Shown one piece after another: positions 1 to 19,924 of a stretch of DNA of 21,703 nt (the stretch's first letter is position 1; each line of letters opens with the position of its first letter). Both the position numbers and the translations under genes were made by a program. Where the stretch lies: positions 1 to 21,703 of the IMG/VR virus record IMGVR_UViG_3300045947_000237. One strand, written 5' to 3'. The notes under the pieces are model-generated. The model did no database searches. It had not been told where the DNA came from and saw only the letters and a list, made by a program, of their open reading frames with translations. This DNA comes from a virus.

Positions 1-2007
1 TTACGGTGCGGTGGCGTAAAGGATCCTGTATGCGCCGCCGAGCGGGATGTGCTCCTGGAGGGCGCGCTCAAGACGGTACTGATTGCGTGAACGCCCCCGG
101 TAATAGTGGGAGCGGGAATTGCCGACCTGGCCGCCGGCCTCCCACATGTAGTCCGCGGAGGGGAAGTTTCCGTCGAAATAGTCGAGCAGCCGGGAGTCCT
201 CTTCGACGAGGAGCTGGTCGGCCTGGAAGCGCATGAAGCTTCTGGTCGTGAACGGTCCGTTGGCGACGATCGCCTCCCACTTGGCGCCCTGGTAGGTGAC
301 GTGCGCGAGCGGTCCGTATCCGGCGGTCGCGGACCAGTTCGGGGCGGAGGCGGTGCCGGTGTAGGGGCGCCAGACCTGGTCGTCGCTGTCCGGCGGGATC
401 GGCCCGAAGAGGTACTGGACGCTGTTGGCGGCGTAGCCGACGATCAGGTCCAGGGTGCCTGAGTGGGTGACCGCGGTGGTGAAGGTGACCTTGATGCGGT
501 CCCACGGAGCCCCGCCGGTCGTGGGGTAGATCCTCGAAGTCTCGCCCCGTACCCATTCGGATCCGTCGTGCGCCCAGATGGTGACGGGCACGGACTCGAA
601 CTTCGGCCGCACGTACGCGGACGCGGTGTAGGTGGTGTCGGGCTTGAGCTGGTCGATCAGCGCGTTCCCGGAGGTCACCGCGCGCATGCCGGTGCGCTGT
701 ACGCTGCCGTCCACGAGCACCTGGACCGCGAAAGGGCCGGTGATCTCGAACTCCGCGCAGCCCGGGGTGACGCCCTCACCGCTGCGTGTGATCTTGGTGG
801 TCAGCTCGGTGGCGGCGTTGGTGCGGTAGCCGGTCACGTTGTTCTGGAAGCTGGGGTTGGAGACGTAGTTGACACGGTTGGCGCGGAGCTTGACGGTGAG
901 CTGCTTGGCGGGCTGCCAGGGCCTGGCCGGCGACGCTCCGGCGGGCCGCCCGGCCTGTGTGGTGGGCAGCATGAGGCGGTGTTCGTCGGCCCAGAAGGTG
1001 ATGGTGGTGAGCGTGGTGGCGGCGGTGATGCGGGGGACGACGGCGGCCCACACGGTGTTCGCGGGCATCTTCACGTAGCCCCAGGCGGTCTGCCAGCGCC
1101 TGGCTCCGGCGGTGGCGATGCGGGACTTCTGGATGACGGTGGAGTCGGGGTTGTCGATGTCGACGGGGTCCTGGCGGGCGATCATCGGGCTGCCGATGAA
1201 GTTGAAGTTCGCGTCGTAGGCGTTGACCTGGCAGTAGAAGCCGAGGCTGGGACGGTCGGTGGCGGCGGAGACCTGCGCGCGGTAGATGAACCCGGCCTGC
1301 ACGGGAACGAGCGCGTCGCGGGTCGGCAGCAGTCCGTAGCCGCCGGGCCCGGGAAGAGGCTGGACGGATCCCGTGGACACCTTCTGTCCGCCGTCGGCCG
1401 GTGTCCAGGGGGTGTAGCGCACACCGGAGTACGTGGATCTTTTGTTGCGGACGTTGGTGTACGTTCCGAAGTTCTTGACCTGGTCGTAGCTGTTGCCGGG
1501 TGTGGGACTGATGTAGCGGTAGAAGCCGGCGTACTCGCCGCAGGAGACGACGTCGGTGACCCGGCGGAACGTGGCGTTGTCGTCGACCAGCTGGTAGGTC
1601 GAGGCCACCGACGTCGGCAGGTACAGCACGCGGCCCTCGTAGGATCCCTGCTCCATCGTCAGCAGGTTCTGGCCCACCAGGTCTTCTTCGATGTCGGTGG
1701 CCGGCGGGGTCTTCTCGAACTGCATGTATGACAGCTGATGGATCTCTGCGTCGGCGGCCGAGGAGACGTAGCTGTAGGGGCGGGCGAACGCGGCCCGGGG
1801 GTAGACGTACCGTCCGGCCAGCCCTGGATAGTTGTTGGGGGCTGTCGCGGTGAGGGACAGCCGCAGCCACTGGTTGTTCGTTGCTGCGCCGGGAACGCGT
1901 ACGGTCCCCGCTGTCGCGTGGGAGAAGGCGGGGTCGTTGATGGACTGCTCGTCGGGGACGTGGGCGAACTCGGCGAAGGCTCCCTCGATGGGGCTCGGTG
2001 TGCTCAC
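1..2007 (-). CDS. Tail fibre / minor tail protein with CBM4/9-like domains
   Basis: 668 residues from GTG 2007, which overlaps the gpI-like stop as GTGA; the TAA is at bases 1-3, so the gene is complete. Residues ~225-347 (VPVQAGFIYRAQVSAATD, WGYVKMPANTVWAAVVPRI, ITFWADEHRLML) and ~377-550 (NRVNYVSNPSFQNNVTGY, LKPDTTYTASAYVRPKFESV, WDRIKVTFTTAVTHSG) look like two galactose-binding-fold CBM4/9-type domains, as in actinophage minor tail proteins. The end (~607-636, LLDYFDGNFPSADYMWEAGG then NSRSHYYRGRS) is the YFDG...Y.WEG...S.S motif common in those proteins. The first 200 residues have no match that I recognise. It is likely a surface-exposed adhesin. Open frame continues upstream to 2787 but is only a shadow of the preceding gene. 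Confidence 0.8.
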   Translation of the reverse strand: MSTPSPIEGAFAEFAHVPDEQSINDPAFSHATAGTVRVPGAATNNQWLRLSLTATAPNNYPGLAGRYVYPRAAFARPYSYVSSAADAEIHQLSYMQFEKTPPATDIEEDLVGQNLLTMEQGSYEGRVLYLPTSVASTYQLVDDNATFRRVTDVVSCGEYAGFYRYISPTPGNSYDQVKNFGTYTNVRNKRSTYSGVRYTPWTPADGGQKVSTGSVQPLPGPGGYGLLPTRDALVPVQAGFIYRAQVSAATDRPSLGFYCQVNAYDANFNFIGSPMIARQDPVDIDNPDSTVIQKSRIATAGARRWQTAWGYVKMPANTVWAAVVPRITAATTLTTITFWADEHRLMLPTTQAGRPAGASPARPWQPAKQLTVKLRANRVNYVSNPSFQNNVTGYRTNAATELTTKITRSGEGVTPGCAEFEITGPFAVQVLVDGSVQRTGMRAVTSGNALIDQLKPDTTYTASAYVRPKFESVPVTIWAHDGSEWVRGETSRIYPTTGGAPWDRIKVTFTTAVTHSGTLDLIVGYAANSVQYLFGPIPPDSDDQVWRPYTGTASAPNWSATAGYGPLAHVTYQGAKWEAIVANGPFTTRSFMRFQADQLLVEEDSRLLDYFDGNFPSADYMWEAGGQVGNSRSHYYRGRSRNQYRLERALQEHIPLGGAYRILYATAP

Positions 2008-5000
2008 GTCTTCTGTACCCTTTCCAGAATCCCGATTCCGAATTCGGTGTTGTTGGTGGAGTTGGTGACGTCTGCCAGCTGCTTCCACCCGCTGGCGTAC
2101 GTTCCCAGCTCTCGGACGTGGACCTGAATCCTGGATGTTCCGATCGTCACGCGCATGCGCGACCCGTACGGGAAAGCCGTCCAGGTGGCGAGCGGCGCCT
2201 GCTGGTCCACGGCGGTGACGTTCCCCGACGCGTCGAAGGTGATGAGCGTGTAGGTGAGCCGTTCGCGTGAGGCGAGGAAGTAGCGGCCCTGCGTGGATGT
2301 GCCGCCGTAGCGGAAGCACAGGCCGTGCTCCATCGTCGCGCCTTCGATCGGCTGCGGCGGGCTGACGAACGTCACGTACGCGGTCTCGTCGGTGGTGGCG
2401 GTGGTGTAGATCCAGCTCCGGTTGAACCGCAGGACCCGGCCGGCCTGCTTCTCCAGATCGGTGCTCTGTCCCCAGCTGGTGGGGTAGACGAGCCCGTTCT
2501 TGGTGGTGAAGTTGCCGCGCGCCCTGATCCAGGGGATCTGCACGCCCATCTGCCAGGGCGCCGGGACCGGCGGCGGCGTGGGCGTGGGGTTGGAGGACGG
2601 CGGGTAGATCGCTCCGTCGAACTCGAACCGGTCCAGGAGCTGCTGACGCGGGTCGTCGACCCGGGTGATGCCCATGCTGGAGCCCAGAGCGTCGTACCAC
2701 TGGATGGTGTTGTGGACCTGTGTGGTCCCCGCGGAGCGGTGGTGGTGGGAGGTGAAGGTGTACTTCTGCACGTCCAGTCCCAGCCACCGCCAGGACCGGT
2801 TGTTCGTGGAGTCACCGCTGGGCGCAGTCGAACGCACCTCGGGCAGAGCGCACTGGTAGATGTTCGAGGCCAGGGAGACGGTGTCGCCCTTCTTGTACAG
2901 GCTCGTGGAGTTCCATGCGGGCCGCACCGGCAGCGGGATGCACTGGTCGTGGACCTGCGCGGGATCGGGCAGCGACTGGTTGTCGTCCGGCTTGGGCCTG
3001 GAGGTCAGCTCCCACAGCCTGGGGTTGACGTCCGGCTTTCGGTCTTCGCTGGACACCAGCGCCCGGTAGACCGGCTCGTAGGGAAGCTGCTGCGGGTTGT
3101 AGGTGACGAACTGGCCGGTGAGGTAGCGGGTGTTGGCGGCCCACCCGGTGGTCTTGATGGCGCCGCCGCCCATCATGAACAGCTGCGACGGCTTGGGCGC
3201 CGACCCGGTGACGGCGACCGCGAGGGAGTTCCCCGGATAGGGCGGCTTGGGCGTTCCCGAGGGCCACACGCCGGTGTCCGGGCCGCGCACGGAGATCCAC
3301 ATGTATTCGGTCGAACCGTCGAACCGGTCGTTGTACATCGCGTTCGTGGAGGATCCCGTGGGCCGCCATGCGACGTTCCAGTTGCCGTAGCCGTCGGTGC
3401 CCGGGTTCCACTCGGAGTCGAAGTCGCGCAGCTGTCCAGCGGTGACCGGCTGCCAGTAGGTGCTGCCGGGGACGTTGGGTTCCTGCCCGCGGTTGGGGAG
3501 AGCGTCACGGTGCTGGAGGGTGAAGAAGTTCAGCAGGATACGTTTGCCGGTGGACAGCGGGCTGACGCTGGAGAACGTGACGTCGAGCTTGTTGCCGGTG
3601 GGGGACAGGTTGACGGGCCCGAGCCGGACCGGGCTCAGCTGCTGGCGTCCCTCACGGTAGGTGTCCTGCGGGGTGAGCACCGCCGACGACGATCCTGTGT
3701 CATTGGTCCATTTCACGCTGACCCGGCATCCGTCGGGGTCGCCCATGAGCGTGACGAAAATGTAGTGGGCCGGCGACTCCGCCGGCGGGGCCGGGAACGT
3801 GATCCGGATCCCGTCGCCGACGTTGGTGGCCTCGTACTGGAAGACGCTGTGGTAGGGGTAGGCGAGCGGCTCGTACTGCTCGCTGACCACCCCGGAGGGG
3901 ATCGCGGAGATCCACGACGGATTGATCTGGCCGGCCGAGTAGTCGATGTACCCGGCGATGGAGCGGTAGAGGCTGCCGCCGTAGGTGACCACCGGCGCGT
4001 ATCGGGTGGGGCTGATGTGCGTGCCGTAGGTGGCGTCGGGATCCCACACCGGGTAGACGGGCGTGGCGAACGCGGCCATGTCCTGGTCGTGGAGGATGTT
4101 GTAGCCGTCGGAGACGTCGGCCCCCCAGCCGGTCATAGACTCCGAGAGCGCCTTCACCGCGACGGGCGTACCGCGGTCCCGCTGGATCATCAGCGCATCC
4201 CTCATATACAGACGACGCAACTCCGCCATCGTCGGCAGGCTGTCCAGCAGGCCCAGCTGGTAGGCGATCAGACCGAGCTGCCGGTCCGAGCACTTCTGCG
4301 TGTCGTTCATGAACAGCATCCGGTCGTTCTCGCTCTTCATGACGTCGAAGAAGAACCCGAACACGCTCACGAAGTCCATGAGCTGCTGATTGACCGGAAT
4401 GAAACTCGCCGTGGTCTCGACCTGCGACACCTTGTACGGGCGCGGGATCAGGTCGTACAGCCGCTGCGTGTAGCGGTGGTCCTTGACCGCCAGGCCCACG
4501 CAGTACCCGGCCCGGATCCACGGCGCGGTGACGTCGGTGACCTCCCACACCCCGTCGGCGACGTGCGCTGCGGGGGTGAGGTTCTTCGTGTTCACCTTCA
4601 GACAGCGGTAGGAGACACCGTTGTCGATGACCATGTCGCCCGGCTGGTAGGTGCGCCATGACACGTAGGTGTCGAGCTGGCTGGAGACGAACACCGCGTA
4701 GTAGTAGGGACGCCCGTCGACCACGTTGTAGTCCAGGAACAGGTTCTCCGGGTCACCCGGAGGGTCCTCGTCGCTCTTCTGCTTCCCCGACGCGACGTCC
4801 AGCAGGATCACGCCGTCCTCGACGGTGTCCGGCACCCCGTACGGGGAACGCACCAGACGCAGCCTCGACCAGTCCTTCACCCCGGCGAGCGTCTTGGAGT
4901 CCTTCGTCTGGGCCGGGTTGTCCCAGGACACCTCCAGCCGCGAGTAGCCGGTCTGCTCGGCGACCATGTTTCCGGCGTCGAAAGCCAGATAAAGCGGCTG

Positions 5001-5045
5001 CCCGTATTTTTCCTTGCCGTAGAAATCGATCGCGTACTGGGCCAT
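2004..5045 (-). CDS. Large gpI-like baseplate/fibre protein with four carbohydrate-binding-like repeats
   Basis: 1013 residues. Residues ~30-125 look fibronectin-like (SRLEVSWDNP, RLRLVRSPYGVP, GRPYYYAVFV). Residues ~205-320 are P2 gpI-like, as in the proteins that link fibres to the wedge (FFFDVMKSENDRMLFMN, GLIAYQLGLLDSLPTMAELR, RDRGTPVAVKALSESMTGWG). Four segments share a W..(5)..Y..G..V...Y..(C/A/I)L/I...W layout like CBM5/12 modules: about 130-170 (WRTYQPGDMVIDNGVSYRCL), 334-380, 634-682 and 711-756 (WNSTSLYKKGDTVSLASNIY). A Pro-rich linker (818-830) precedes a LamG-like C-terminal sandwich (~845-1010). ATG 5045 lies three bases after the previous stop and has no clear Shine-Dalgarno, so coupling is likely. 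It probably anchors to the wedge and binds glycan. The domain count is by eye. Confidence 0.82.
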   Translation of the reverse strand: MAQYAIDFYGKEKYGQPLYLAFDAGNMVAEQTGYSRLEVSWDNPAQTKDSKTLAGVKDWSRLRLVRSPYGVPDTVEDGVILLDVASGKQKSDEDPPGDPENLFLDYNVVDGRPYYYAVFVSSQLDTYVSWRTYQPGDMVIDNGVSYRCLKVNTKNLTPAAHVADGVWEVTDVTAPWIRAGYCVGLAVKDHRYTQRLYDLIPRPYKVSQVETTASFIPVNQQLMDFVSVFGFFFDVMKSENDRMLFMNDTQKCSDRQLGLIAYQLGLLDSLPTMAELRRLYMRDALMIQRDRGTPVAVKALSESMTGWGADVSDGYNILHDQDMAAFATPVYPVWDPDATYGTHISPTRYAPVVTYGGSLYRSIAGYIDYSAGQINPSWISAIPSGVVSEQYEPLAYPYHSVFQYEATNVGDGIRITFPAPPAESPAHYIFVTLMGDPDGCRVSVKWTNDTGSSSAVLTPQDTYREGRQQLSPVRLGPVNLSPTGNKLDVTFSSVSPLSTGKRILLNFFTLQHRDALPNRGQEPNVPGSTYWQPVTAGQLRDFDSEWNPGTDGYGNWNVAWRPTGSSTNAMYNDRFDGSTEYMWISVRGPDTGVWPSGTPKPPYPGNSLAVAVTGSAPKPSQLFMMGGGAIKTTGWAANTRYLTGQFVTYNPQQLPYEPVYRALVSSEDRKPDVNPRLWELTSRPKPDDNQSLPDPAQVHDQCIPLPVRPAWNSTSLYKKGDTVSLASNIYQCALPEVRSTAPSGDSTNNRSWRWLGLDVQKYTFTSHHHRSAGTTQVHNTIQWYDALGSSMGITRVDDPRQQLLDRFEFDGAIYPPSSNPTPTPPPVPAPWQMGVQIPWIRARGNFTTKNGLVYPTSWGQSTDLEKQAGRVLRFNRSWIYTTATTDETAYVTFVSPPQPIEGATMEHGLCFRYGGTSTQGRYFLASRERLTYTLITFDASGNVTAVDQQAPLATWTAFPYGSRMRVTIGTSRIQVHVRELGTYASGWKQLADVTNSTNNTEFGIGILERVQKT

Positions 5046-5048
5046 GAG

Positions 5049-5825
5049 CTACACCGTGTCACGTGCGTAGATCAGTCCGATATTGCAGCTCGCGTCCACC
5101 GAAGAAGACGTCACACCGTGCTGGGACACCTGCACCTCGACGTACTGGTCCTTGGACCACTTGCCGGCCCAGGTGATGTTCAGCCGGTGGAAGATACCGT
5201 CCTCCGATTCCAGCAGGGAATCCTGGCCGCCGATCTCCTGCCCGTTGACCAGCATCCGGGTGTGCACGAAGTGGAAGTCGCCGCGCCGGTAGGGTCCGGG
5301 GTCCGCCTTGATCTGCGCGGTGATCATCCAGAACCCCGTCAGCCCGCAGTAGATCCGGGTGCCGCCCTGGTACATCCTGAACGGATCCCACACCGCGGAC
5401 GTCCACCGGAACGTCGACCAGTCGTTCGCGCCGGCCGTCACCGGCTGCCCCGACGCACGGATCTGCGCCACCGGCGTCTTGGGCTGCGTCGGCTTCTGCG
5501 GCTTGATCGCCCCCGGCTCCAGGTCCGAGGCGTCCAGCTGGATCAGCGTGGTCGCCCAGGTGAGCTGGCGCTGGAGTGCGTCGAGGCGTGTGCCGATGTC
5601 CGCGTACTTCTTGGCCCGGCCGAGGGCCAGTTCCGGGGGCGGCATTCTCTCGTTGGCGATGAAGGGCATGTTGAATCCCTCCCAGTTCGCGGGATTCGTG
5701 CCGACCGTCTTCTCGATGGCAGTGACCTCGTTCTGGAGGTCGTTGACGTGCGCCGCCCAGACGGTATCGATATTGTCCGTTTTCGGCAGGAAGGTCTTCA
5801 CCGATACCGGGTACACAGCAGGCAT
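5049..5825 (-). CDS. Small tail fibre / receptor-binding protein with C1q-like C-terminal domain
   Basis: 258 residues, from ATG 5825 with AAGGAG seven bases upstream. Residues 15-45 (KTDNIDTVWAAHVNDLQNEV, AIEKTVGTNP) are a phage fibre N-terminal motif often seen in Gram-positive phages. Residues about 67-97 form a short helical region (ALGRAKKYADIGTRLDALQR), possibly a trimeric coiled coil. A Pro/Lys-rich linker (101-120) leads to a jelly-roll-like domain (about 140-258: GLTGFWMITAQIKADPG, FHFVHTRMLVNGQEIGG, QYVEVQVSQHG) that resembles C1q/TNF-type heads. It probably attaches to the baseplate by its N-terminus and binds the host surface. The target is unknown. It sits between the gpJ and gpI-like genes, a normal place for fibres. 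Confidence 0.8.
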   Translation of the reverse strand: MPAVYPVSVKTFLPKTDNIDTVWAAHVNDLQNEVTAIEKTVGTNPANWEGFNMPFIANERMPPPELALGRAKKYADIGTRLDALQRQLTWATTLIQLDASDLEPGAIKPQKPTQPKTPVAQIRASGQPVTAGANDWSTFRWTSAVWDPFRMYQGGTRIYCGLTGFWMITAQIKADPGPYRRGDFHFVHTRMLVNGQEIGGQDSLLESEDGIFHRLNITWAGKWSKDQYVEVQVSQHGVTSSSVDASCNIGLIYARDTV

Positions 5826-5836
5826 TCTTGAACTCC

Positions 5837-7363
5837 TTACACGCCGCCCGCAGCGACGATCTCCATGAACCCAAGAACAGGAATCTCAAAATCCCGGCAC
5901 ACGATGTCCGCCGTCGAAGTAAATGTCTGATCACTACGCCGCATCAGCTGAATCTGAGCCCAGTCCACACCCGGCACCGACTGAATACGCCGGTACACCT
6001 GACTCAGGGAAACCCGCGAGCCGAACGTCGTCGCCGACGGAGAGAACAGACGCTGCATCGCCTTTTCCACCGCCAGCCTCACCGTGTCCCGCCGATACCG
6101 GGGCAGAACCTGAAGAAGAACCGGCAGCGTAGGCGGAGTACCCGCCGCGGAAAAATCGATCCGAACCAGAGCACCATTGGCCACCGTCACCACCACACCG
6201 GCCAGCGACCTCGCCGACACATACCGCACCACAGCATCCCGCTGCGCCTGCGTCGGCATATTGTTGTTCGGCCCCAGAACAAAAATCGTCACCGACGAAG
6301 CCGACACCGCGACCGCCTTGGCATCCCCGATACCCGGCACCGCAAGAGCCAGATCCGCATAGTCCTTCGCCGACACCGCACGCCCCAGCGTCCGAAACAG
6401 CCGCGGAGCATTCCCCCGGATCTGCTCAGTCGACTCCGCATCCGCCCCGCCGGCCATCGAAGAAGAAGCCTTGATCTCCACCCCCGACAAAGCTTCCGAG
6501 AAATCACGGATACGCCCCGACGGAATGTTCCCGTACGCCCCGCCACCCGTCCGGTACGCCGCACAGATCCGCAAGCCCGGCGGAGGAATCGCACCATCGG
6601 AACCGTCACCGAACACCACGTGCGTCGTACCGCGGTCGTCCGTGAAGGCCGTGAAAATCTGCGCGTCCGCGTCGGCGAGAAGAAAGTCCTGCCTGCGCAC
6701 CCACTCATCGCCGGCGACCCCGTCGTCCACGAACACGCGCACCGTGTCCAGCAGCACCGGGCCCTGGGCGAGGGTGAAGTCCTGGCTGAGCTTGCCGTCC
6801 GAGACGCCGATGTCCTCCACCAGCACCGAAACACCCGTGGTGGTGTCGCTGTCCGGATACAGGGACAGCAGCCGCGAGCCCTGCGTACGGCCCTCGACCA
6901 CCTTCACGTTCGTCTCCGATCCCGCCGCCGCCGACACCACCGCGTCGGCCGCCGTCTCGTACACCAGCGGCGAGTCGTACGCCTCCATGAACGAGGTGAT
7001 CACCCGCGTCCCCGCAGGAACCGTCACCGTCGTCGTCTGCCCCGGCGCCGGAGCCAGCGTCACAATCCCCGAAGCCGGAATCGCCACATGCGGCTCATAA
7101 CCGAGCTGCCGGGCAATCGCCACCACCGAAGACCGCTGCGTAGCCGTCAGCAGATACGCCTCGTCCTGAATCCTGTCTTGGTAGAAGCTGACGATGTCCC
7201 CGAGATAGGAAAACATCTCGACCAGCATCACACCGAAGTCAGCCGGCGACCTCGACGTCCACTCGGGAAAAACCTGCGTAGCGTACGCCAGCAGCGACTC
7301 GCGGTACCCCGTGTAATCCCGCGAGGTGTAATCCACCTGCGCGAGAATCCCCGTATCGGCCAC
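5837..7363 (-). CDS. Baseplate wedge protein, gpJ/gp6-like
   Basis: 508 residues from GTG 7363. The N-terminus (VDYTSRDYTGYRESLLAY, then SRSPADFGVMLVEMFSYLGD, TATQRSSVVAIARQLGYEP) is the usual opening of large gpJ-type wedge proteins. The centre has beta domains (VTVPAGTRVITSF, FGDGSDGAIPPPGLRICAAY, GGGAYGNIPSG). Then LFRTLGRAVSAKDYADLALA and VPGIGDAKAV form the hallmark of the family. The C-terminus (AVEKAMQRLFSP, LSQVYRRIQSVPGVDWAQI) matches the end domain. Six dimers form the wedge ring that couples receptor contact to sheath contraction. It follows gp25 and precedes the fibre genes, as in P2 and Afp. It ends with TAA, and the next gene's ribosome site overlaps this stop. Start could instead be GTG 7447 (28 more residues). 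Confidence 0.93.
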   Translation of the reverse strand: MADTGILAQVDYTSRDYTGYRESLLAYATQVFPEWTSRSPADFGVMLVEMFSYLGDIVSFYQDRIQDEAYLLTATQRSSVVAIARQLGYEPHVAIPASGIVTLAPAPGQTTTVTVPAGTRVITSFMEAYDSPLVYETAADAVVSAAAGSETNVKVVEGRTQGSRLLSLYPDSDTTTGVSVLVEDIGVSDGKLSQDFTLAQGPVLLDTVRVFVDDGVAGDEWVRRQDFLLADADAQIFTAFTDDRGTTHVVFGDGSDGAIPPPGLRICAAYRTGGGAYGNIPSGRIRDFSEALSGVEIKASSSMAGGADAESTEQIRGNAPRLFRTLGRAVSAKDYADLALAVPGIGDAKAVAVSASSVTIFVLGPNNNMPTQAQRDAVVRYVSARSLAGVVVTVANGALVRIDFSAAGTPPTLPVLLQVLPRYRRDTVRLAVEKAMQRLFSPSATTFGSRVSLSQVYRRIQSVPGVDWAQIQLMRRSDQTFTSTADIVCRDFEIPVLGFMEIVAAGGV

Positions 7364-7463: not shown

Positions 7464-9875
7464 CTACCCTGTCGCCGTCGGCGGCCTGGTGTACCCGGGT
7501 GTCAGCGACACGGTGCCGCCCACCCCGATCCGCACGTTCCTCGCTGCCGTGTTCCCCGACCCGGGCGCAACGTCAGCTCGCGCCACCTGGACGCGTACGT
7601 TCACCAGCCCCAGCTGCTGGTTGACGTCCGTGTCCACCGCGACGATCCGCGCGGTCGGCTCCCAGAACGCCACCCCGTCGGAGATGGCCTGCTCCAGCTC
7701 CGCCTTCGCCGCGTCCGCGGGCAGGAACAGCTGCTGCGACGTCGGCACCCCGTAGGACGGGCGCATCACACGCTCCCCAGGCTGTGTGGAAACCAGCGTG
7801 TGCACCCGGTCCAGGACCATCAGGAACTCGTCCGTCGTCGTGGAGACCCAGCCGTTGGCCGTCACCGCAAACGGAATCCTGGCGGTGACCGTGTCCACAT
7901 CCGGGATCGGGCCGCCCGGCGCGAAGACGCCCCGCGACGGAAGCGGCCTGACCGGCAGCCGGTCCGGAGGCAGTGCCAGCAGCGGCAGCTTGTACAGGGC
8001 CAGGACGCGTCGGCCCGGCGCCACGTCCCCCACCGAATACCCGAACCACAGCTCGGGCCCGGCCGGCCCGTAGAACACGTTGTACGCCTCCGGCTCGCGC
8101 ACATCGAGATCCGGGTCCGCGCCCTGGAAGACGCGCTCGACGAACCGGCCGTCCAGGCGCACCGCGCCCAGGTACTGGTTGCCCGGCGGCTTGTTCCCGT
8201 CGACCCCGTAGGCGTTGCCTTCCTGGAAGTACAGGTACTGGCCGAACAGGCACATCGTCTGGAACGTCCCCACCCGGCCCACGTCGGGGAACTCCGACAG
8301 CGGAACGAAGTTCCCGGCCTTGAAGTCGTCCAGGTCGAACAGCGTGTACGAGATCCCCTTCGCCGGCGGGGCCTCGGTGTGCCGCACCAGAATCCTGCGC
8401 GTGGGGATGTCGATGGCGTTGAGGACGACCCGGTCCCCAGACACCGGGTCGAACTTCTGCACTGCCGCGTCCGAGGACGTCACCACCGCCCCGTCCACGA
8501 ACTTCGTGCGCCCGACCTTCGTGCCGTACCCGTACGTCCCGTACCGCACCGCGGCGGCCTCGGTCCACAGGTACACTTCGCCGCCGAACACCTCCACGCC
8601 CAGGCTCGTACCGTGCCCCATCCCCAGCAGGAACATGTGCCCGGTGATCACCCCGGCCGCGTCCAGCCGGGTCACACAGATGTCTCCGTCCGCGCCGCGC
8701 TCGGCGTACGTCTTGGCCTCGCTCTCGCCGGGGAACTGACGCCCTCCCTGGATCACCTGTGACACGAACATCGTGTCATCGAGACGGTTGAACGCGATCT
8801 GCTGCGGCGCCCCCACCTCATGCAGGATGAACGGGTCCATCACCTTCTGCGCCTTGGCCTGAAGGTCGAACCGGCGCGTCGAAGGAGTCTCCGGATCCGG
8901 AGCCAGCACCTCGAACGCATACAGCACGATGCGCCGCGCGCCCGCATCGCCCAGGGCAAACCCGAGAACCAGCTGCATGCCGTCCGCTGTCGAGCGGACG
9001 GCCAGCGTCTCCGGCTCCCGGTACTCCAGCTGCGGCTGCTGCACCTGGTGCACGCGCTCCACCAGGGCGCCGGTGGACACGTCGGATACGACCACGTACG
9101 TGTTGCCCGGCGCGAGGTTCCCCGGGTCCACGTAGTACGAGCCCTCCAGCTCGTACAGGTAGCGGCCCCACAGCACGAAGTTGTGGTAGGTGTTCCCCGC
9201 CGGGATGTTCGTCGCGAACCCGGAAATCGGCGCAAAGTCCCGGGCGAGGAAATCCCCCAGCGCGTACATCAGGAAGAAGCGCCCCTGATTGGCGTCCTTG
9301 TAGTGCACGATGATCCGGTTCGTCGACACGTCCACGCTCGCGGTGACGCGCAGCATCCCCGGCACCGGGTCGTAGGACTCCACCGGCACACGGAACCACT
9401 GCGGGGCCGGCGGGTCGGGCTGCGTGATCGGATCGTTGATCCGCGAGTTCCCCGAGTCGACGAGCCCGTTGTCGACGAACCGGAACCGGCCGACCTGCGT
9501 CCCCCACGCGTAGGTGCCGTCCCGGACCGCGGCTGTTTCCATCCACAGGAACGTTTCGTCCTCGACCGGCTCCGCGGTCACCCCCCACCCGTGCCCGGCC
9601 CCCCGCACATACATGCGTCCCGTCTGCGCGCCAGCGGCGTTCAGCCGGGTCACCATCAGGTCACCGCGCTGCTCGCGGATCGTCCCCGACAAGGCTGCGT
9701 CCTCGTCGATCAGCTTCACGCCGCTGGGCATGATCTGCACCACGAAGATGTGCCCGTTGACGCTGTCGAACGCCGACGACTGGTGCACCCGGGCGTTACC
9801 CGGGATCGGCTGGTCGGCCAGGACCGTCGACCAGGTGGACTCCAGATTGAACCGGCGCGTAGTGGGGACTGCCAT
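7464..9875 (-). CDS. Two tandem TagC/P68-type beta-propellers fused to a gp25-like baseplate wedge domain
   Basis: 803 residues. Residues about 5-322 and 332-630 are two copies of one domain: RRFNL/RRFDL openings, GDLMVTRLNAAGAQTG and GDICVTRLDAAGVITG, GAGHGWGVTAEP and GMGHGTSLGVEV, FLWMETAAVR and YLWTEAAAVR, then REPETLAV and REPEAYNV near the end of each. These match the P68 RBP/TagC-like beta-propeller, found in receptor-binding and surface proteins. After a Pro-rich linker (630-658), residues 662-785 are gp25-like: IPFAVTANGWVSTTT, LVSTQPGERVMRPSYGVP, LEQAISDGVAFWEPTARI. gp25 is normally ~130 residues and forms the wedge core that nucleates the sheath. The only possible internal start for gp25 (GTG 7898) has no ribosome site, so the fusion looks genuine. 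The gpJ-like wedge follows. Confidence 0.9.
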   Translation of the reverse strand: MAVPTTRRFNLESTWSTVLADQPIPGNARVHQSSAFDSVNGHIFVVQIMPSGVKLIDEDAALSGTIREQRGDLMVTRLNAAGAQTGRMYVRGAGHGWGVTAEPVEDETFLWMETAAVRDGTYAWGTQVGRFRFVDNGLVDSGNSRINDPITQPDPPAPQWFRVPVESYDPVPGMLRVTASVDVSTNRIIVHYKDANQGRFFLMYALGDFLARDFAPISGFATNIPAGNTYHNFVLWGRYLYELEGSYYVDPGNLAPGNTYVVVSDVSTGALVERVHQVQQPQLEYREPETLAVRSTADGMQLVLGFALGDAGARRIVLYAFEVLAPDPETPSTRRFDLQAKAQKVMDPFILHEVGAPQQIAFNRLDDTMFVSQVIQGGRQFPGESEAKTYAERGADGDICVTRLDAAGVITGHMFLLGMGHGTSLGVEVFGGEVYLWTEAAAVRYGTYGYGTKVGRTKFVDGAVVTSSDAAVQKFDPVSGDRVVLNAIDIPTRRILVRHTEAPPAKGISYTLFDLDDFKAGNFVPLSEFPDVGRVGTFQTMCLFGQYLYFQEGNAYGVDGNKPPGNQYLGAVRLDGRFVERVFQGADPDLDVREPEAYNVFYGPAGPELWFGYSVGDVAPGRRVLALYKLPLLALPPDRLPVRPLPSRGVFAPGGPIPDVDTVTARIPFAVTANGWVSTTTDEFLMVLDRVHTLVSTQPGERVMRPSYGVPTSQQLFLPADAAKAELEQAISDGVAFWEPTARIVAVDTDVNQQLGLVNVRVQVARADVAPGSGNTAARNVRIGVGGTVSLTPGYTRPPTATG

Positions 9876-9883
9876 GAAGGTCT

Positions 9884-9889
9884 CCTCCT
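9884..9889 (-). promoter_or_regulatory. Strong ribosome binding site of the propeller-gp25 fusion gene
   Basis: AGGAGG lies eight bases before ATG 9875. It is the best Shine-Dalgarno in the window and overlaps the spike gene stop. It supports initiation at the N-terminus of the fusion. Confidence 0.75.
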
Positions 9890-10478
9890 AGATCTTCCGG
9901 TACCGCAGTCCGGACATGAACACCGACACCGGCTGGGTCTCGGGCGCCACGTCCTTGACGATGCGGAACTGCACCGTGCCGTCCTTGACGATCCCCACCC
10001 GCATGTACGCGCCCAGCACCGTCTCGTACGTGGATGTCGATCCCGCTACCGCGTACGCGTCGTTCGCCGGCGTCCACCCGTTGGGCAGCTTCGCCACCGA
10101 CCTCGTCCCCGCCGCCGGGACCACCGTCGAAGTCACCGCCCCGTCCAGCTCGATCATGCCGTCACCCGTCACCCGCGCCACCGGACGCCCGTAGCGGGCA
10201 TCGGGATGCGCCGCCCAGCCAGACAGCATCACCAGCGGCTGCCAGCCCAGCTCTGCCCCCTTGGGGAACGGCCAGAACACCGGCCAGTGCACCACCCCGC
10301 CCGAGAAGGCGATCTTCACCTGGTCCCCGACCGCGACCGCCCCCGGCACCGCGGGATCGGCCCAGCCGCTGACCCCCAGCCCGGAAACCTGCGGCACCCG
10401 CACCCGCACCCGGCCCCGGGCCTCCGGATCCTTGATGTCGGCGATCACACCGTCGAAAGTGCCCCACAGATCCGTCAC
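9888..10478 (-). CDS. Baseplate spike protein: gpV/gp5 OB-fold with fibre-knob-like C-terminus
   Basis: About 196 residues. The N-terminal ~75 (GTFDGVIADIKDPEARGRVR, VPQVSG, PGAVAVGDQVKIAF, HWPVFWPF) are the OB-fold of phage baseplate assembly protein V / T4 gp5. There is no beta-helix repeat or PAAR tip after it. Instead, residues about 84-196 (MLSGWAAHPDARYGRPVARV, GDGMIELDGAV, KLPNGWTPAND, RVGIVKDGTVQF) resemble the trimeric beta-sandwich knob often found at the ends of phage tail appendages. Two adjacent GTG codons (10481, 10478) can start it; the second gives a GTGA overlap with the hub stop like other junctions here. The OB-fold is certain; the knob is a pattern-based inference. Confidence 0.85.
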   Translation of the reverse strand: MTDLWGTFDGVIADIKDPEARGRVRVRVPQVSGLGVSGWADPAVPGAVAVGDQVKIAFSGGVVHWPVFWPFPKGAELGWQPLVMLSGWAAHPDARYGRPVARVTGDGMIELDGAVTSTVVPAAGTRSVAKLPNGWTPANDAYAVAGSTSTYETVLGAYMRVGIVKDGTVQFRIVKDVAPETQPVSVFMSGLRYRKI

Positions 10479-11677
10479 CACGTACCGTCCATGTACTGGG
10501 CCCGCCAGCGGCCGTTCACCAACACCGTCTCCCCGAAACGTTTCAGCTGCGCGGACACCGGCAGCACGATCCGGTCGATCTGATTACGGCCCAGAACCAC
10601 ATCGCACTGGTAATCGGTCTGCACCATGTCGAACCAGTTCGGCTTGAACCGGTGCGTCACCGACCGCACCATCCACGTCCCCGAGTTCTCTGTGCCGATG
10701 CCGTTCCCGCCCAGCTCCACCAGCGCCCCCGGCCGCAGCCGCGAGTCCCCGGTCACCGTGCACTGGGACTCCACCCACAGCCACTCCACCTGCGAGGCGA
10801 TGTTGTTCACCGCCCGGTCGTAGGAAGTCGAAGGCCGCTGGCTCCAGAACTGGGTCAGCAGCGGCGCCCGCTCCCCGGCCCTCGGCGGCTTCGACCGCGG
10901 CTGCGTGTACGTCGCGGGCATCAGCTGTCCCGTACGCCGGTTCAGCGACACCGTCTCGTACCGGGCCCGCACACCGCCCACCGGATCCGTCTCGCCGGCC
11001 GTCGACTCGAACGACCGCAGGGAATTGAACGAGCCCTGCGCCTTCCACAGCTCGAACTTCGGCACCCTGGGATCACCCGTCGGCTGCGCCACGTCCCTGG
11101 ACACGAACCACAACGCCGTCTCATCCACATACACGCGGTAGCCGACGTAGTCGCAGATCTCCGACAGGAACGCCCAGTCGGACGTGACCTGCATGCGCTG
11201 CTCGAACCTGACCGAGGAGGTCTCCACGCGCGGCTGGAGGCTGTGCTCGAAGGCGATCTGCCGGGCGATGGCCGACAGCGTCGTGGCCGGCCACAGCCGG
11301 TTCTTCACCGACTGCATCGTCATCGACACGCCCACCAGCGTGTACCTCACCGTCAGCTGCACGATGTGCAGGAACGAAGGGTGCCGTTCGGAGTTCACCA
11401 CCTGGGCGCTGGCCACGTACCCGTAGAAGTTCGCCGACAGATTCGACTGCAACCCCCACTTGAAGTGCACCGCCGTGGCGTCGGTCCACACCGAGCCACC
11501 GGGCTGCCACCAGTCCTGCGAGGGTATCGTCGCCGGATAGTGCTGCTTGAGCGTCAGCTCGGCGACCTGGTGGGCGTTCTCCGCCTGGTAGAGGACCATC
11601 TCCTCTATCCAGTCGTTCGGCATCATCACCGGCTCGACCAGCGTCAGGTGCGGAACGTAGCGGTCATACAGTGCCAC
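10475..11677 (-). CDS. Baseplate hub protein (gp27/gpD/VgrG N-terminal-like)
   Basis: 400 residues from GTG 11677. Features of the hub family are the beta-barrel segments (FYGYVASAQVVNS, LTVRYTLVGVSMTMQSV), the middle SALSAIARQIAF-like helix (TLSAIARQIAFEHSL), then VTSDWAFLSEICDYVGYRVY, which is the classic late-control-D signature of a helix followed by a barrel strand. The C-terminal third has RLRPGALVELGG and GTWMVRSVTHRF, also typical. Trimers form the central hub between tube and spike. It lies between the LysM gene and the spike gene, as in P2, Afp and type VI systems. The start overlaps the previous gene and has only a weak Shine-Dalgarno, consistent with coupling. Confidence 0.9.
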   Translation of the reverse strand: MALYDRYVPHLTLVEPVMMPNDWIEEMVLYQAENAHQVAELTLKQHYPATIPSQDWWQPGGSVWTDATAVHFKWGLQSNLSANFYGYVASAQVVNSERHPSFLHIVQLTVRYTLVGVSMTMQSVKNRLWPATTLSAIARQIAFEHSLQPRVETSSVRFEQRMQVTSDWAFLSEICDYVGYRVYVDETALWFVSRDVAQPTGDPRVPKFELWKAQGSFNSLRSFESTAGETDPVGGVRARYETVSLNRRTGQLMPATYTQPRSKPPRAGERAPLLTQFWSQRPSTSYDRAVNNIASQVEWLWVESQCTVTGDSRLRPGALVELGGNGIGTENSGTWMVRSVTHRFKPNWFDMVQTDYQCDVVLGRNQIDRIVLPVSAQLKRFGETVLVNGRWRAQYMDGTW

Positions 11678-12729: not shown

Positions 12730-15654
12730 CTACCACCCTCCAAGCAGCGACTTGATCCGCTCATCCGCAGCGATAAACGACACAAACTGCTCCGCAGCAG
12801 ACTGCGCGCCCTCAGCAGAAGCCGACGGCATATTGATCACCACAGACCCCTCGCTGAACGTCAACGTCACCGCAGCACCCCCAGCGCCCCCCGACGGCAG
12901 CCCCGCATACGCCTGCTCACTGAGCGCCTGCCGCACCGTCGAAGCCTGCTCACGGGTCAGCACCATCTCCCCGCCGTGCAGCTGCGCCACCTGCTCGCCC
13001 GGAATCTCCCACGCGCCGGCCGTGTACCAGTTCCCGACGTCCTTGCCGTTGATCGGCACCCGGGCTTTCCAATGCGCCAGCGCCTTCGACGGAGAACCGT
13101 ACGCCCCCCGGATATAGTTCAGGCCCCACGCGATCTGCTTCTCCGGAGAATTCCGCCACGCATCGTTATTGGTTTCCGGGTACAGATTGCTCATCGCCTG
13201 CGGAATCCCGTACGCGTCAGACCCCGGGTTGTCGGCGTTGTGCCTCCAGTTCGACTCCTTCGTCCACAGGTCGAACAGCGCATCCCACTCCCCGCCCGTC
13301 CAGCCGTACGGAGCAGCCGCAGCCATCGTCTTGCCCAGCGCCGCGTTCCCCGACGGATTGTCCGGCGCCGGCGCCACAGACTCGCCCGCGTCGCTGTTCT
13401 GATCCGACACGTTCTGCGGGCCGCCCGAACCACCACCACCTCCGCCGGCGAGGGCAGCAGCAAGGATGTCCTTCTCCTCACCGCCCCCGGACGCACCCCC
13501 GCCGTTCCCTCCAGGCCCCCACGACTTCGTCGCGTCGTTCTCACTGCCCCCCAGCAGGCCCGTGGCCCGGTCACCGCCGGACATGATGCGCTTGGCGTGC
13601 GTGTACTTCCCCGACCAGCCGATCGGCTTCTCCACCACCCCGTACTGCGGGCTGGACGCCTCCACCACGCTCCCGTTGCCCGCGTACAGGCCAACGTGGG
13701 AGTTGTCCCCGTAGAACACCAGGTCACCGGGGAGCAGTTTGTCCAGGCCGACCTCGACGCCCTCCTTGACCTGGTCGTAGGTCACCCGCGGGATCTTCTG
13801 CCCGATCGAGGCAAAGGCGTGCTGCACGAGGCTGGAGCAGTCCCAGGCGTCCGGTCCGGTCGCACCCAGGATGTACCGCTTGCCGACCTCGGCCCGCGCG
13901 GTTGCGATGACCTTGTCCATGTCACCCGACACCAGACCGGGAGCCGACTGATCCTTCCGGCCCGGCACACCCGCATGGTCGGGCTCACCCAGCGTGCGCT
14001 GCTTGTTCTGCTCCTGTCCCATACGCTTGCCGAACGTCGCCGACGCACCGCCTCCGCCCTGACCACCCGGCGGAGAATTCATCGCCGCGCCCAGGTACGT
14101 TCCGAGAATAGGGATGGAGGCAACACCCTTCTGGAACCAATTACTCTCCTCCCCGCTCGATTCCGTAGACCACCCTTCCTTGCTGAACAAGTTTCCCTTG
14201 ATGTTGTTCCACGCCACCGCCCCCTTACCGACCAGCCCACCCTGCTCGCCGGCCGCCTTGTACTTCGCGAACGGCTCCAGCACGGGTTGCAGCATGTCCT
14301 TGATCGCGATCGTCGCATGCGCGGCGTCCACCAGAGCGTTCTGCACGCCACCGGAAGCCGCCAGCATGTGCTCGCGTTCCTTGCCCCGCTTCCGGTACTC
14401 CACATCGACCGCGGTCTCACCGAAATCCTTCAACCCAGGCGTCTGCTGAATCTTCTGACGGGCCGCCTTGGCCTTCTTCTCATCCTTGCCGGCCGCGTCC
14501 GTGAACAGCTTCTCGACGTCCGTCTGACTCAGGTCCGGGAACTGGTCCGCGACCTTCTTCTGGTTCTCGATGGTCTTCACCATCGCCTCGGCCTGGGTGG
14601 CGTCCATCCCCAGCTCGGAAGCGAACGTGTCGATGTTCTGCGACAGATAGCCGCCCGGCCGCAGAGCGTTCGCCAGGTGCTCGGCGTTGATCTGCCGCAG
14701 GTTCGACACCCCGAACGTCTGCGTGGCCAGCCGGGCCGCCATCGTCTGCGTGCCCACCACGTTTCCGCCGACCTGCCGCGACGGCCCCAGCCCCATCGCC
14801 AGCGACGTGTAGAACCCCTGCCCCGAACCGATCTTCGTCTGCATGTCCAGCGCGCCCGACGCCCCCAGCCCCGGTGTCCCCATCGCCAGCGCCGCGGCCT
14901 CGTTCATCATCCGCGGACGCTGCTGGGCGTTGTAGTTCCGCATGAACCCCGAGCCGGCCGAGAAAAGATCCTCGTTCGACGTCGCATAATTCTGCAATCC
15001 AGCGTCGAACAAAGGCTGAGCCGCAGCCTTCGCCCGCGCACCCATCGTGGCACCCGCCACCGGCTGCATACCCATCGTCCGCTGGTAGAACTGCGACTGG
15101 GCGAACGCGAAGTTCCGCTCATACGGAGCCCCCGCCGACACCGCCCCCGCAGCAGCCCCCAGCGTCTGCCCCACCGCCGCCATGCGGTTCATCCGCACCT
15201 CGGCGCTGTGCTGCGTCTCCAGCTGCTGCCGCTGCGCCGTCATGTTCGACCGCGCGTGCAGGAACCGGTTCGTATCCAGTTCCCGGTCCGCCTCCAGCCG
15301 CCGCACGCCGATGTTGTAATCACCGCGGCTGATCTGGCCCGCCGCCAGGCGTCCGCTCAGCCGGTCGTGGTCCTCCCGCGCACGCCTGCGCGCCTCAAGA
15401 AAGGACTGCGAAGCGATCGACTGCTGCCGGTCCAGCTGCTCGGACCGCGTGGTGTAGTACTGCTGCCCCCGCCCATGCTGCTGGCCCAGCCCGCCCAGCG
15501 CCCCCCACGGGGAGCCCGACGCCCCGCGCGACATCCCCTGCGTCAGCTGCGAAATCGCACGCGTCAGCTGACCCATCTGGCCGGCGAGCTGGTTGGTGCC
15601 GACGATCTGCGGGTTGCCCTGCTGGGGGCCGGGGCCCGGTACGGGATTGCTCAC
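12730..15654 (-). CDS. Tape measure protein with NlpC/P60 and lytic transglycosylase-like domains
   Basis: 974 residues from GTG 15654. Residues 1-570 are helical, Gln/Ala-rich and low in complexity (for example 75-160, RSEQLDRQQSIASQSF onward), as in tape measures. About 580-691 is an NlpC/P60 peptidase: Cys606 in WDCSSLVQHAF, His653 in DNSHVGLYAGNG, and Glu665 in VVEASS, spaced like the Cys-His-Glu triad of RipA. Gly/Ser-rich linkers follow. About 785-865 resembles a transglycosylase: Glu800 in KESNWRHNADNPGSDAYG, IPQAM, and NYIRGAYGSPSKALAHW. The C-terminus has GGEMVLTREQAS, common in phage tape measures. It sets tail length and probably cuts peptidoglycan on injection. The stop overlaps the region just before the next start. 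Family and catalytic residues are seen; activity is inferred. Confidence 0.93.
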   Translation of the reverse strand: MSNPVPGPGPQQGNPQIVGTNQLAGQMGQLTRAISQLTQGMSRGASGSPWGALGGLGQQHGRGQQYYTTRSEQLDRQQSIASQSFLEARRRAREDHDRLSGRLAAGQISRGDYNIGVRRLEADRELDTNRFLHARSNMTAQRQQLETQHSAEVRMNRMAAVGQTLGAAAGAVSAGAPYERNFAFAQSQFYQRTMGMQPVAGATMGARAKAAAQPLFDAGLQNYATSNEDLFSAGSGFMRNYNAQQRPRMMNEAAALAMGTPGLGASGALDMQTKIGSGQGFYTSLAMGLGPSRQVGGNVVGTQTMAARLATQTFGVSNLRQINAEHLANALRPGGYLSQNIDTFASELGMDATQAEAMVKTIENQKKVADQFPDLSQTDVEKLFTDAAGKDEKKAKAARQKIQQTPGLKDFGETAVDVEYRKRGKEREHMLAASGGVQNALVDAAHATIAIKDMLQPVLEPFAKYKAAGEQGGLVGKGAVAWNNIKGNLFSKEGWSTESSGEESNWFQKGVASIPILGTYLGAAMNSPPGGQGGGGASATFGKRMGQEQNKQRTLGEPDHAGVPGRKDQSAPGLVSGDMDKVIATARAEVGKRYILGATGPDAWDCSSLVQHAFASIGQKIPRVTYDQVKEGVEVGLDKLLPGDLVFYGDNSHVGLYAGNGSVVEASSPQYGVVEKPIGWSGKYTHAKRIMSGGDRATGLLGGSENDATKSWGPGGNGGGASGGGEEKDILAAALAGGGGGGSGGPQNVSDQNSDAGESVAPAPDNPSGNAALGKTMAAAAPYGWTGGEWDALFDLWTKESNWRHNADNPGSDAYGIPQAMSNLYPETNNDAWRNSPEKQIAWGLNYIRGAYGSPSKALAHWKARVPINGKDVGNWYTAGAWEIPGEQVAQLHGGEMVLTREQASTVRQALSEQAYAGLPSGGAGGAAVTLTFSEGSVVINMPSASAEGAQSAAEQFVSFIAADERIKSLLGGW
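12736..12741 (-). promoter_or_regulatory. Ribosome binding site fixing the CIS-tube-like gene start
   Basis: GGAGGG, inside the last codons of the tape measure gene, is eight bases before ATG 12727. It overlaps the in-frame GTG at 12736, which is therefore not the start. Confidence 0.65.
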
Positions 15655-16677: not shown

Positions 16678-17268
16678 CTAACTGAACAGGGCTATCGAAT
16701 CGGGTCCGGTCTTGTCTGCGATCTTAAAGTCCCAGCCTTCATGCGCGAGAACCACCTGGCTGATGGCAATTCCGTTGCCGCCGGCGTTGAGGTCGGAGAA
16801 ATTCAATGCCTTGGGCCAGCAGTTGTAGAGCCGCCACCCGGCTTTGTACGGAGAGTTGATCGAGGTGATCGGGTGGTCGAGGAGATAGATGTCGACGGTC
16901 GCCCTGAAGTCCGTGCCCTTCGAGTTCCCGCCGACGCCCTGCATCACCTGGAACACACGGGTCATCCACGTGTAGATGTAGGAGTCCCCGAGGACCAGGC
17001 CGCGGGAAAGGGTGACGTCGGAGTACGTGGCCTGGAGGGGCATCTGCTGCACGGTGGTGTTCATGCCGCCCTGCCGGTAGGCCGTCGACTCCGCGGAAAT
17101 CGACAGCCCTGACACCGACATGAACCCCAGATTGCCTCCGTTGTAGTTCCCCGAGTTCTTCGCGCCCTGCTGGCTGATGATCACGCGGAACTTGAAGTTG
17201 CGCAGGGGATCGACGTCGATGTTCGAGAGAGAAGAACTCTGGGAAGTCCAACCCCACTGTCCCGGCAT
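16678..17268 (-). CDS. Tail tube protein 2 (gp19-like paralogue)
   Basis: 196 residues from ATG 17268. It shares with tube protein 1 the motifs DPLRNFKFRV, GFMSVSGLSI, YRQGGMN, VTLSRGLVLGD and AHEGWDFKI, each in the same order and spacing. It differs in loops, for example an NSGNYNGGN insertion before the GFMSV motif, and has a longer C-terminus (ADKTGPDSIALFS). Two tube paralogues after the sheath recall Afp1/Afp5 of extracellular injection systems, where one forms the shaft and the other the baseplate-proximal ring. By position next to the chaperone and baseplate genes this could be the ring-type tube, but that is inference. A GTG six bases upstream is a less likely start. Confidence 0.92.
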   Translation of the reverse strand: MPGQWGWTSQSSSLSNIDVDPLRNFKFRVIISQQGAKNSGNYNGGNLGFMSVSGLSISAESTAYRQGGMNTTVQQMPLQATYSDVTLSRGLVLGDSYIYTWMTRVFQVMQGVGGNSKGTDFRATVDIYLLDHPITSINSPYKAGWRLYNCWPKALNFSDLNAGGNGIAISQVVLAHEGWDFKIADKTGPDSIALFS

Positions 17269-17275
17269 CGTCACA

Positions 17276-17926: not shown

Positions 17927-19924
17927 TTACAGCTGCGTACCGTTGCCGCCCGCGACATCCGAGGCGGTCAGACCTCCCTGGTACTGGGAGATGTCGATGA
18001 CGATGAACTCGGCCGGCGACGCCAGAGCGACACCCACCTTCACGTGGATTTCCCCGTTCGCCACCGTCTGAGGCGGATTGTTGCTCTCGTCGCAGATGAC
18101 GAAGAACGCCTGCTCGGGCAGCGTCGACTGGAACCTGCCCGCCTGCGTCATCGTCATCAGCTGCTGCGTCACCAGCGTCGTGATCTGGTGCCACAGATCC
18201 GGACCATTCGGCTCAAAAATGGCGAACCTGGTCGTACGCTCCAGCATGTCCTCCAGGAACACCAGCATCCTGCGCACGCTGACGTACCGGTCCGGCATCC
18301 CCATGCGCAGGGTCCGCGCGCCCATGATGCAGAAACCCACCTGCGGGATCGGACGGCAGACGTTGATCCCCCGCTCGTTCAGCCTGTCCAGCTGCTCCAG
18401 CGTGAACAGATGCTGCACCCCGACCACGCCCACCAGCGGGTAGTCCACACCCGCCGCCGCCCTGTTCGGGCCCACCAGCGCGTCGGCGAGCGCGTACTGG
18501 CCCATCACCGCGCCGCCCGCAGGCAGCAGCCGCATGCTCGTCAGCGACGTCCCCGCAGGGTCCGCCACCGCCAGCCACGGCCCGTACACCGCAGCCCACG
18601 ACGTCGAGGCCGGAAGGGTGCGCTCATACTCCGAGACCACCGTCGCCGTGTCGGGCCGGTCGACGTTGGGGACGTCCACCACCATGAACGCACGCCGCCG
18701 CTTCTCCACCCACTTGACCGCGGCGTCGATCTGCGTCTTGTCCGGCACCCCGTCGTTCACACCGGTCATACCGCACAGGTTGATCAGCAGCACGTCGTGA
18801 ATCGAGCCGAAGCCCTTCTCCAACGCAGCCGCCAGGTCCGGCGCCGGGGTATCGGGGTTGTCGGAGTCCTTGCCGCCCGCGAACGGGTCACGGCCCTGGG
18901 TGGACTCCAGCGACCACGAACCGTCCGGAGTCGGCGACGTACCCGCCACCGGCGTCGCCGGCGGCAGCAGATTCTTCGCGCTCACATAGTTCGAACCGCC
19001 CGTAGGCGAGTTCATCATGCCGATCACATACCGCGGGTCCGCCGGGTGCAGCGACACGTCCTGCCACGTCTCCACGACCCGCGCCGTGTCCGCCGCCTCC
19101 CCGTAGGAGATGACCACGTGCGCCCGCGTACGGTCCGCCGGATCCCACGACCGCGTCACCTCCACCCACAGCTGGTTGCCGTAGGCGCCCTCACCCTTCG
19201 CCGTCAGCTCCATCGCCGGAACGGGCGTGTTGTTCGGGCCCGTGGTGAACACCGGCACCGGATCCTGCTTCGGACCCTCCGCGGTCCCCTTGAACGGCAC
19301 GATCTCCACCCGGTACTCGGTGGCCACCGACAGGCCGGTGAACGTCACCTCCGGCTTCGTCGTCCCCACCTGCGGCACCCACACATCCCCCGGCTGGATC
19401 GGAGTCTGCGAACCCGCCAGGAAGAACCGCACCCGGTAGGCATCCACCGCGGCAGCAGGCAGCGCCGTCCACGTCAGCCAGATCCCCTTCGCCTTCGCCG
19501 GGAACTTCTCCGACAGGCCGGCGATCGGATTCGGCGGCGCCGTACCCGTACCCGTCGGCGCCTCACCCACCGGGGTCTGCACCCAGTCCGGCGGCAGATC
19601 CGGAGGATTCGGCACGTTGATCAGCGTCGCCTTCGCCGCCACCGCCCCCGTCTTCGCCGCCCGCAGCACCCACGTCTGCGCACCGCCGTTGGCGAAATAG
19701 TTGTAGACGGAGAACGGCAGGATGTTCAGGCCGTCGCCGAAGCCCCCGTACAGGGCCTGGAACTGCGACCAGGACGAGATCTTCACCGGCTTCGTCGGAC
19801 CCACCGTGTGCGTACCCACGAACGCCGCAATAGCCTGCCCCGGCGCCGTCACCGGCTCCGGAAGCGGCTTCAGGGTTTCGTTGATGTACACGCCCGGACG
19901 CTTGTACAGAAACGGCGTAGTCAT
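17927..19924 (-). CDS. Contractile tail sheath protein with an inserted fibronectin-type III-like domain
   Basis: 665 residues. The N-terminus (YKRPGVYINE, residues 7-16) and SSWSQFQALYGGF (50-62) are typical sheath motifs. The C-terminal domain (about 545-650: VRRMLVFLEDMLERTTRFA, FEPNGPDLW, then GRFQSTLPEQAFFV and VGVALASPAEFIVIDI) is the conserved sheath core with the interlocking C-terminal arm. Residues about 143-228 form an insert resembling fibronectin type III (GIWLTWTALPAAAVDAYRV, VTFTGLSVATEYRVEIVP). An insert there would sit on the outer face of the sheath. The sheath surrounds the tube and contracts to drive it through the envelope. ATG at 19924 has GGAG six bases upstream, overlapping the TAG of the preceding gene. 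The tube genes follow directly. Very confident on function; the fold of the insert is inferred. Confidence 0.95.
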   Translation of the reverse strand: MTTPFLYKRPGVYINETLKPLPEPVTAPGQAIAAFVGTHTVGPTKPVKISSWSQFQALYGGFGDGLNILPFSVYNYFANGGAQTWVLRAAKTGAVAAKATLINVPNPPDLPPDWVQTPVGEAPTGTGTAPPNPIAGLSEKFPAKAKGIWLTWTALPAAAVDAYRVRFFLAGSQTPIQPGDVWVPQVGTTKPEVTFTGLSVATEYRVEIVPFKGTAEGPKQDPVPVFTTGPNNTPVPAMELTAKGEGAYGNQLWVEVTRSWDPADRTRAHVVISYGEAADTARVVETWQDVSLHPADPRYVIGMMNSPTGGSNYVSAKNLLPPATPVAGTSPTPDGSWSLESTQGRDPFAGGKDSDNPDTPAPDLAAALEKGFGSIHDVLLINLCGMTGVNDGVPDKTQIDAAVKWVEKRRRAFMVVDVPNVDRPDTATVVSEYERTLPASTSWAAVYGPWLAVADPAGTSLTSMRLLPAGGAVMGQYALADALVGPNRAAAGVDYPLVGVVGVQHLFTLEQLDRLNERGINVCRPIPQVGFCIMGARTLRMGMPDRYVSVRRMLVFLEDMLERTTRFAIFEPNGPDLWHQITTLVTQQLMTMTQAGRFQSTLPEQAFFVICDESNNPPQTVANGEIHVKVGVALASPAEFIVIDISQYQGGLTASDVAGGNGTQL

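Follow-up and report, generated by a model that had tools for sequence, protein, structure and literature searches.

Background

Sheath initiators of the gp25/BW1 family (PF04965) include T4 gp25, Pvc9 of PVC and pyocin PA0617; the members of solved structure that we found are 108-239 aa long. The T4 baseplate contains six copies of gp25, located in its upper dome (PMC3004832), and BW1, the gp25 orthologue, accepts the first sheath subunits (PMC10811340). The receptor-binding proteins of the studied phages attach to BW3 or BW2 (PMC10811340). The nearest precedents to the fusion discussed below take several forms: Gp119 of phage Vp4 is a BW3 with carbohydrate-binding modules (PMC11406892), the tail spike of phage Milano is disulphide-bonded to BW1, and in SPO1-like phages BW4 is fused to BW1 (both PMC10811340).

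Two other families are relevant here. Propellers of the P68 type (PF21311) are known from the P68 fibre (6iab/6iac), from Gp17 (9m7x) and from the tail fibre of Bacillus phage 019DV002, i.e., from separate tail fibre proteins. The poly-gamma-glutamate hydrolase PghP of Bacillus phages (3a9l, 21dc; PF05908) is also a separate protein in known phages; proteins of the PghP type are reportedly covered by PF05908 over their whole length (PMC4497714).

The window considered below is the whole 21.7 kb (21,703 nucleotides) of the IMG/VR virus record IMGVR_UViG_3300045947_000237. Its closest cultured phages are of the Streptomyces Borockvirus type (J about 39-40% identical, sheath about 37%). BRock, GiJojo and LuckySocke have the gene order sheath-tube-TMP-hub-spike-gp25-J, as in the window; however, their gp25 is bare and encoded by a stand-alone gene (137 aa), whereas the gp25 of the window is fused to other domains. 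Neither PF21311, in the three Borockvirus-type genomes searched, nor PF05908, in the genomes searched, was found.

Results

A single contractile-tail module, encoded on the minus strand, was recognised in the window (Pfam and PHROGs), in the order sheath, two tube proteins, T4-type baseplate protein, tape measure, hub, spike, fusion protein, J and fibre-like proteins (Table 1); GC is even throughout, 63-69%. With the spike, J, hub, sheath and tube genes as its neighbours, the fusion gene sits in a real contractile-tail module. The J protein is about 61-63% identical to those of the related contigs L016, L023 and L183.

Table 1. Coordinates of the fusion gene, its parts and the main baseplate and tail genes in the window
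Feature	Position	Strand	Evidence
Whole fusion gene (propeller-propeller-linker-gp25)	7464..9875	-	ORF, translation; SD AGGAGG 8 nt upstream of ATG
Propeller 1, P68/TagC-type RBD propeller, aa ~6-333	8877..9860	-	PF21311; own-profile match aa 6-335
Propeller 2, aa ~335-643	7947..8873	-	PF21311, best stretch aa 398-520; own-profile match 335-643
Pro/Gly-rich linker, aa ~644-665	7881..7946	-	Translation; start-codon/SD scan
gp25/BW1 sheath-initiator domain, aa ~666-797; Pfam core 7587-7817	7485..7880	-	PF04965, alignments, PDB profiles
Baseplate spike (OB domain), upstream neighbour	9888..10481	-	PF04717, 3.2e-8
Baseplate J (T4 gp6-like), downstream neighbour; GTG start at 7363 assumed	5837..7363	-	PF04865, 2.1e-19
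Baseplate hub (gpD-like)	10475..11677	-	PF05954 / phrog_52
Tail sheath with fn3 domain	17927..19924	-	phrog_23, 1.5e-47; PF04984, PF00041

Some other genes of the module deserve mention. The fn3 domain of the sheath scores 4.4e-5, slightly below the Pfam cut-off. Two tandem genes for tail tube proteins of the T4 gp19 type (17296-17865 and 16678-17274, minus strand; both PF06841) possibly represent a tube duplication or a tube protein with a tube initiator. The tape-measure-like protein (12730-15696, minus strand) includes an NlpC/P60 peptidase domain (Pfam, 7.7e-17), and a Tail_P2_I-like protein of 1013 aa (2004-5045, minus strand) has CBM_5_12 carbohydrate-binding modules in three stretches (Pfam, 1.1e-6). 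The product of 20627-21673 (minus strand, 348 aa) has no convincing match in Pfam or PDB; its N-terminal half appears GDPD-like by eye, which neither Pfam nor PDB confirmed.

The fusion gene is one uninterrupted frame of 803 aa (ORF list and translation). Its product matches PF21311 (Phage_RBD_prop) in two stretches with 45.3 bits against a cut-off of 23.7, and PF04965 at aa 687-763 with 44.5 bits against a cut-off of 27.2 (49 bits in a separate profile search); both domain families reach E-values of about 1e-11 (Pfam). Considering these E-values together with a Streptomyces protein that matches the propellers at 35% identity, the domains of the fusion are beyond chance. PHROGs assigns the propeller part to tail proteins and the gp25 part to “baseplate wedge subunit”. 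The first-pass annotation had described two repeats of about 310 residues and a gp25 domain behind them in the same frame, and both statements hold: all the motifs it quoted are found (YREPETL and VREPEAY, GDLMVTRL and GDICVTRL, GAGHG and GMGHG in the repeats, STQPGERVMRPSYG in the gp25 part), the repeats share 37-38% identity, and PF21311 occurs twice with PF04965 in one protein.

The domain, the slot before J and the motifs GERVMR..YG and EP are common to the window protein and the described gp25/BW1 initiators; the difference is that the gp25 domain of the window lies behind about 665 residues made up of a linker and other domains. E739-P740 is invariant within the sub-clade of the window, and the following R is replaced by S or T (EPTA in the window), whereas the PVC gp25 proteins have R after EP. 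The GHG and REPE motifs are likewise shared with the P68-type, Gp17 and 019DV002 propellers, which belong to separate fibre proteins, while the window has two of them in tandem on a wedge core protein. The gp25 profile matches PVC Pvc9, T4 gp25 and the pyocin initiators in PDB, and the propeller profile matches Gp17 (9m7x, 1.1e-6) and the P68 tail fibre (6iac/6iab, 1.6e-3). AlphaFold modelled the window protein poorly (pLDDT 45, mostly beta predicted), and the putative five-bladed propeller fold is therefore assigned from sequence profiles.

The propeller-gp25 version is known from one contig, and its propellers resemble secreted proteins of the host, so that an artefact of assembly or gene calling, which joined a host TagC-like gene to the phage gp25, has to be considered. 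We regard it as very improbable. The frame is uninterrupted, the two propellers have diverged, the gene order is intact with the correct phage genes on both flanks, GC is even, and relatives bear additional domains at the same place. Moreover, the host TagC-like proteins mostly have a twin-arginine leader and one propeller, whereas the window protein starts with MAVPTTRRFN, without an export leader (leaders were judged by eye), and has two propellers.

The gene starts right behind the stop of the spike gene with a strong ribosome-binding site (Table 1). A scan of start codons and SD sequences revealed no internal start before gp25 with a convincing ribosome-binding site in the fusion gene. This bears on a possibility already listed in the first-pass annotation, the release of gp25 through an internal start or through cleavage; the propellers of such a polyprotein would be located elsewhere on the virion. 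Relatives with bare gp25 do exist, and a GTG codon is present at aa 660, just ahead of the gp25 domain; however, no SD-like sequence accompanies this codon, in contrast to AGGAGG at the gene start, and none of the six fused relatives scanned has a strong internal ribosome site. A cargo that is always removed also need not stay fused at one end over a long history. Such a dual product seems to us quite unlikely.

Relatives with J identities of up to about 62% were gathered by J and gp25 profile scans of IMG/VR and of bacterial genomes. Many of the nearest ones have a long in-frame part before gp25, which is the poly-gamma-glutamate hydrolase PF05908 (E from 1e-33 to 1e-55); PF05908 is not present in the window. 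We gathered 13 distinct hydrolase-gp25 fusions, of which one (L224) lies on a Streptomyces genome contig; one-frame fusions of this kind occur in a dozen IMG/VR contigs and in Streptomyces sp. CBMA29. In other members of this clade gp25 is bare (L017, L018, L096, L176 and L177). We define here the clade “gp25 with N-terminal cargo”, to which the window belongs by its extra in-frame domain before gp25, its tail module and the adjoining J.

In L285 (IMGVR_UViG_3300046536_000476, 4842-6039) the hydrolase and gp25 parts are in different overlapping frames, which reflects either a frame break in a fused gene or a sequencing error. The long frames before gp25 in L269/L270, L227, L248, L241 and L234 were rejected as cargo, being out-of-frame readthrough in high-GC DNA. 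The “gp25” of E217 was also set aside, as it is a capsid protein in the literature and belongs to a different family.

No second propeller-gp25 contig was found in IMG/VR by scans with the whole fusion, with the propeller profile or among the other relatives. INPHARED has 0 records covering 80% of the window fusion protein and, likewise, 0 records covering 80% of the hydrolase-gp25 fusion. An arrangement as separate genes was looked for as well, and no tested relative has a propeller gene beside gp25. A fusion of gp25 to a propeller or a hydrolase is absent from the open-licence full texts searched, which is weak evidence. In these searches the propeller-gp25 combination occurred in the window only, and the earlier statement that no such fusion has been described agrees with INPHARED, the IMG/VR relatives and the literature searched.

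The J tree places the window as the sister of the hydrolase-carrying L016, L023, L183 and L261 (95/92), and in the hub+spike+J tree it again stands next to them (92/96), with hydrolase-carrying lineages on the outer branches around both; the baseplate and hydrolase trees were rooted at midpoint. The branch of the window is long, and its placement support (92-95) is good but below maximal. The 13 fused hydrolase domains all group in one clade with the L285 copy, whose frame is broken (100/98), and the branching within this clade mirrors that of the baseplate genes. A single clade congruent with the baseplate genes makes one old fusion with vertical inheritance the simplest history: as the trees suggest, one hydrolase-gp25 fusion would have been followed by several losses and by replacement with propellers in the lineage of the window. 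Considering the bare gp25 in L017, L018, L096 and L176, losses and swap may have come in a different order. The propeller fusion thus looks like one state of an older exchangeable cargo site at the N-terminus, a point that the first-pass annotation missed.

In PghP, changes at His40, Glu45, His78, Thr80, His103 or Glu165 impair activity (PMC6506827). In the sister group (L016, L023, L180, L183 and L261), each of the five copies differs from PghP at H78, T80 and E165, and H103 is also changed except in L016, so in four copies; H40 and E45 are retained. The full set of six is present in the group of L020, L264, L265, L266 and L267 and in L021, while E165 is changed in the fused copies of L019 and L224. 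The stand-alone hydrolases compared keep all six with the sole exception of H78Y in L276. The fusions of relatives thus share with PghP the fold and, in some lineages, all the catalytic residues. Selection on the hydrolase module remains purifying (dN/dS 0.17-0.43), and this, together with the loss of catalytic residues, suggests a shift from cutting to binding in the sister group, whose cargo may have become a catalytically degraded binder. A binder-like cargo in the sister branch would fit a replacement by binding propellers in the window.

The sister fusion L023 gave a better structure model. Its hydrolase domain is modelled with confidence and matches PghP (3a9l, 21dc); its gp25 domain is of fair quality and matches T4 gp25 (5iw9). 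The 34 residues between them (211-244) have pLDDT below 50 and are predicted to be disordered.

Discussion

We believe that the N-terminus of gp25 in this clade is an exchangeable docking site and that the window encodes a wedge protein with two tethered envelope-binding propellers, which are accessory and not the trigger; on the available evidence we consider this reading probable. The site would first have gained a poly-gamma-glutamate hydrolase through one old fusion. Depending on the lineage, the hydrolase would then have been kept with all its catalytic residues, degraded to a probable binding-only module or lost, and in the lineage of the window the tandem propellers would have replaced it. 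We presume that each wedge still takes up one copy of gp25, that the flexible N-terminal tether lets the propeller pairs reach outward from the core, and that the ligand of the propellers is a cell-wall glycopolymer, for instance teichoic acid, through which they would hold the baseplate on the wall. The six copies of gp25 per baseplate given in the first-pass annotation are right for T4 (PMC3004832); twelve propellers per baseplate would be an extrapolation from that number.

It is tempting to propose a more direct role, as the first-pass annotation did, with the receptor sensor built into the wedge core and coupling binding directly to contraction. The propellers would then be the main receptor sensor and relay binding through gp25 straight to the sheath, bypassing the relay from the fibres to the periphery. 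The location of gp25 at the top of the dome beside the sheath (PMC3004832) does place the cargo suitably, and central wedge proteins alter their shape on contraction (PMC10811340). However, a Pro/Gly-rich linker separates the parts in the window, and its equivalent in the sister fusion is predicted to be disordered, which fits a tethered accessory binder better than a rigid trigger. Close relatives with the same baseplate genes have no cargo at all, so that contraction needs none and the cargo is accessory; the window also has other candidate binders (the CBM_5_12 modules in 2004-5045). We therefore consider the direct trigger unlikely. For the accessory binder that we prefer, the most likely role of the cargo is to raise the affinity for the wall or to select the envelope type.

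The receptor-binding parts of contractile phages are normally on the outer wedge (BW3/BW2) and not on the conserved core, and the window would depart from this rule. As in Vp4 and Milano, surface-binding parts are carried on a wedge protein or joined to it covalently; the decoration of Vp4 is on BW3 and the link in Milano is a disulphide, whereas in the window it is a genetic fusion at the N-terminus of gp25/BW1. Since the clade swaps cargo on this end of gp25, the end appears free and tolerant, and the clade presents natural examples of modules borne by a contractile baseplate core. It also shows a hydrolase apparently passing from cutting to binding, and it offers a testable case of whether a binder tethered to the core affects triggering.

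The host of this uncultured virus is probably a Streptomyces-like bacterium. The first propeller is 34% identical to a Tat-type secreted propeller of Streptomyces, and in the tree both window propellers fall among actinomycete propellers, apart from the Bacillus phage type; the actinomycete proteins grouping with them are mostly Tat-type secreted and have a single propeller. The two window propellers pair in the tree (91/69, weak), which is compatible with an internal duplication. Actinomycete propeller genes occur in 25 of 394 genomes, and neither gp25 nor J was found near them in the 20 stretches examined. In one actinomycete genome (L350, 292-2679, plus strand) a propeller is followed by a tail-fibre-like C-terminal part; this may be a prophage fibre whose propeller belongs to the same family.
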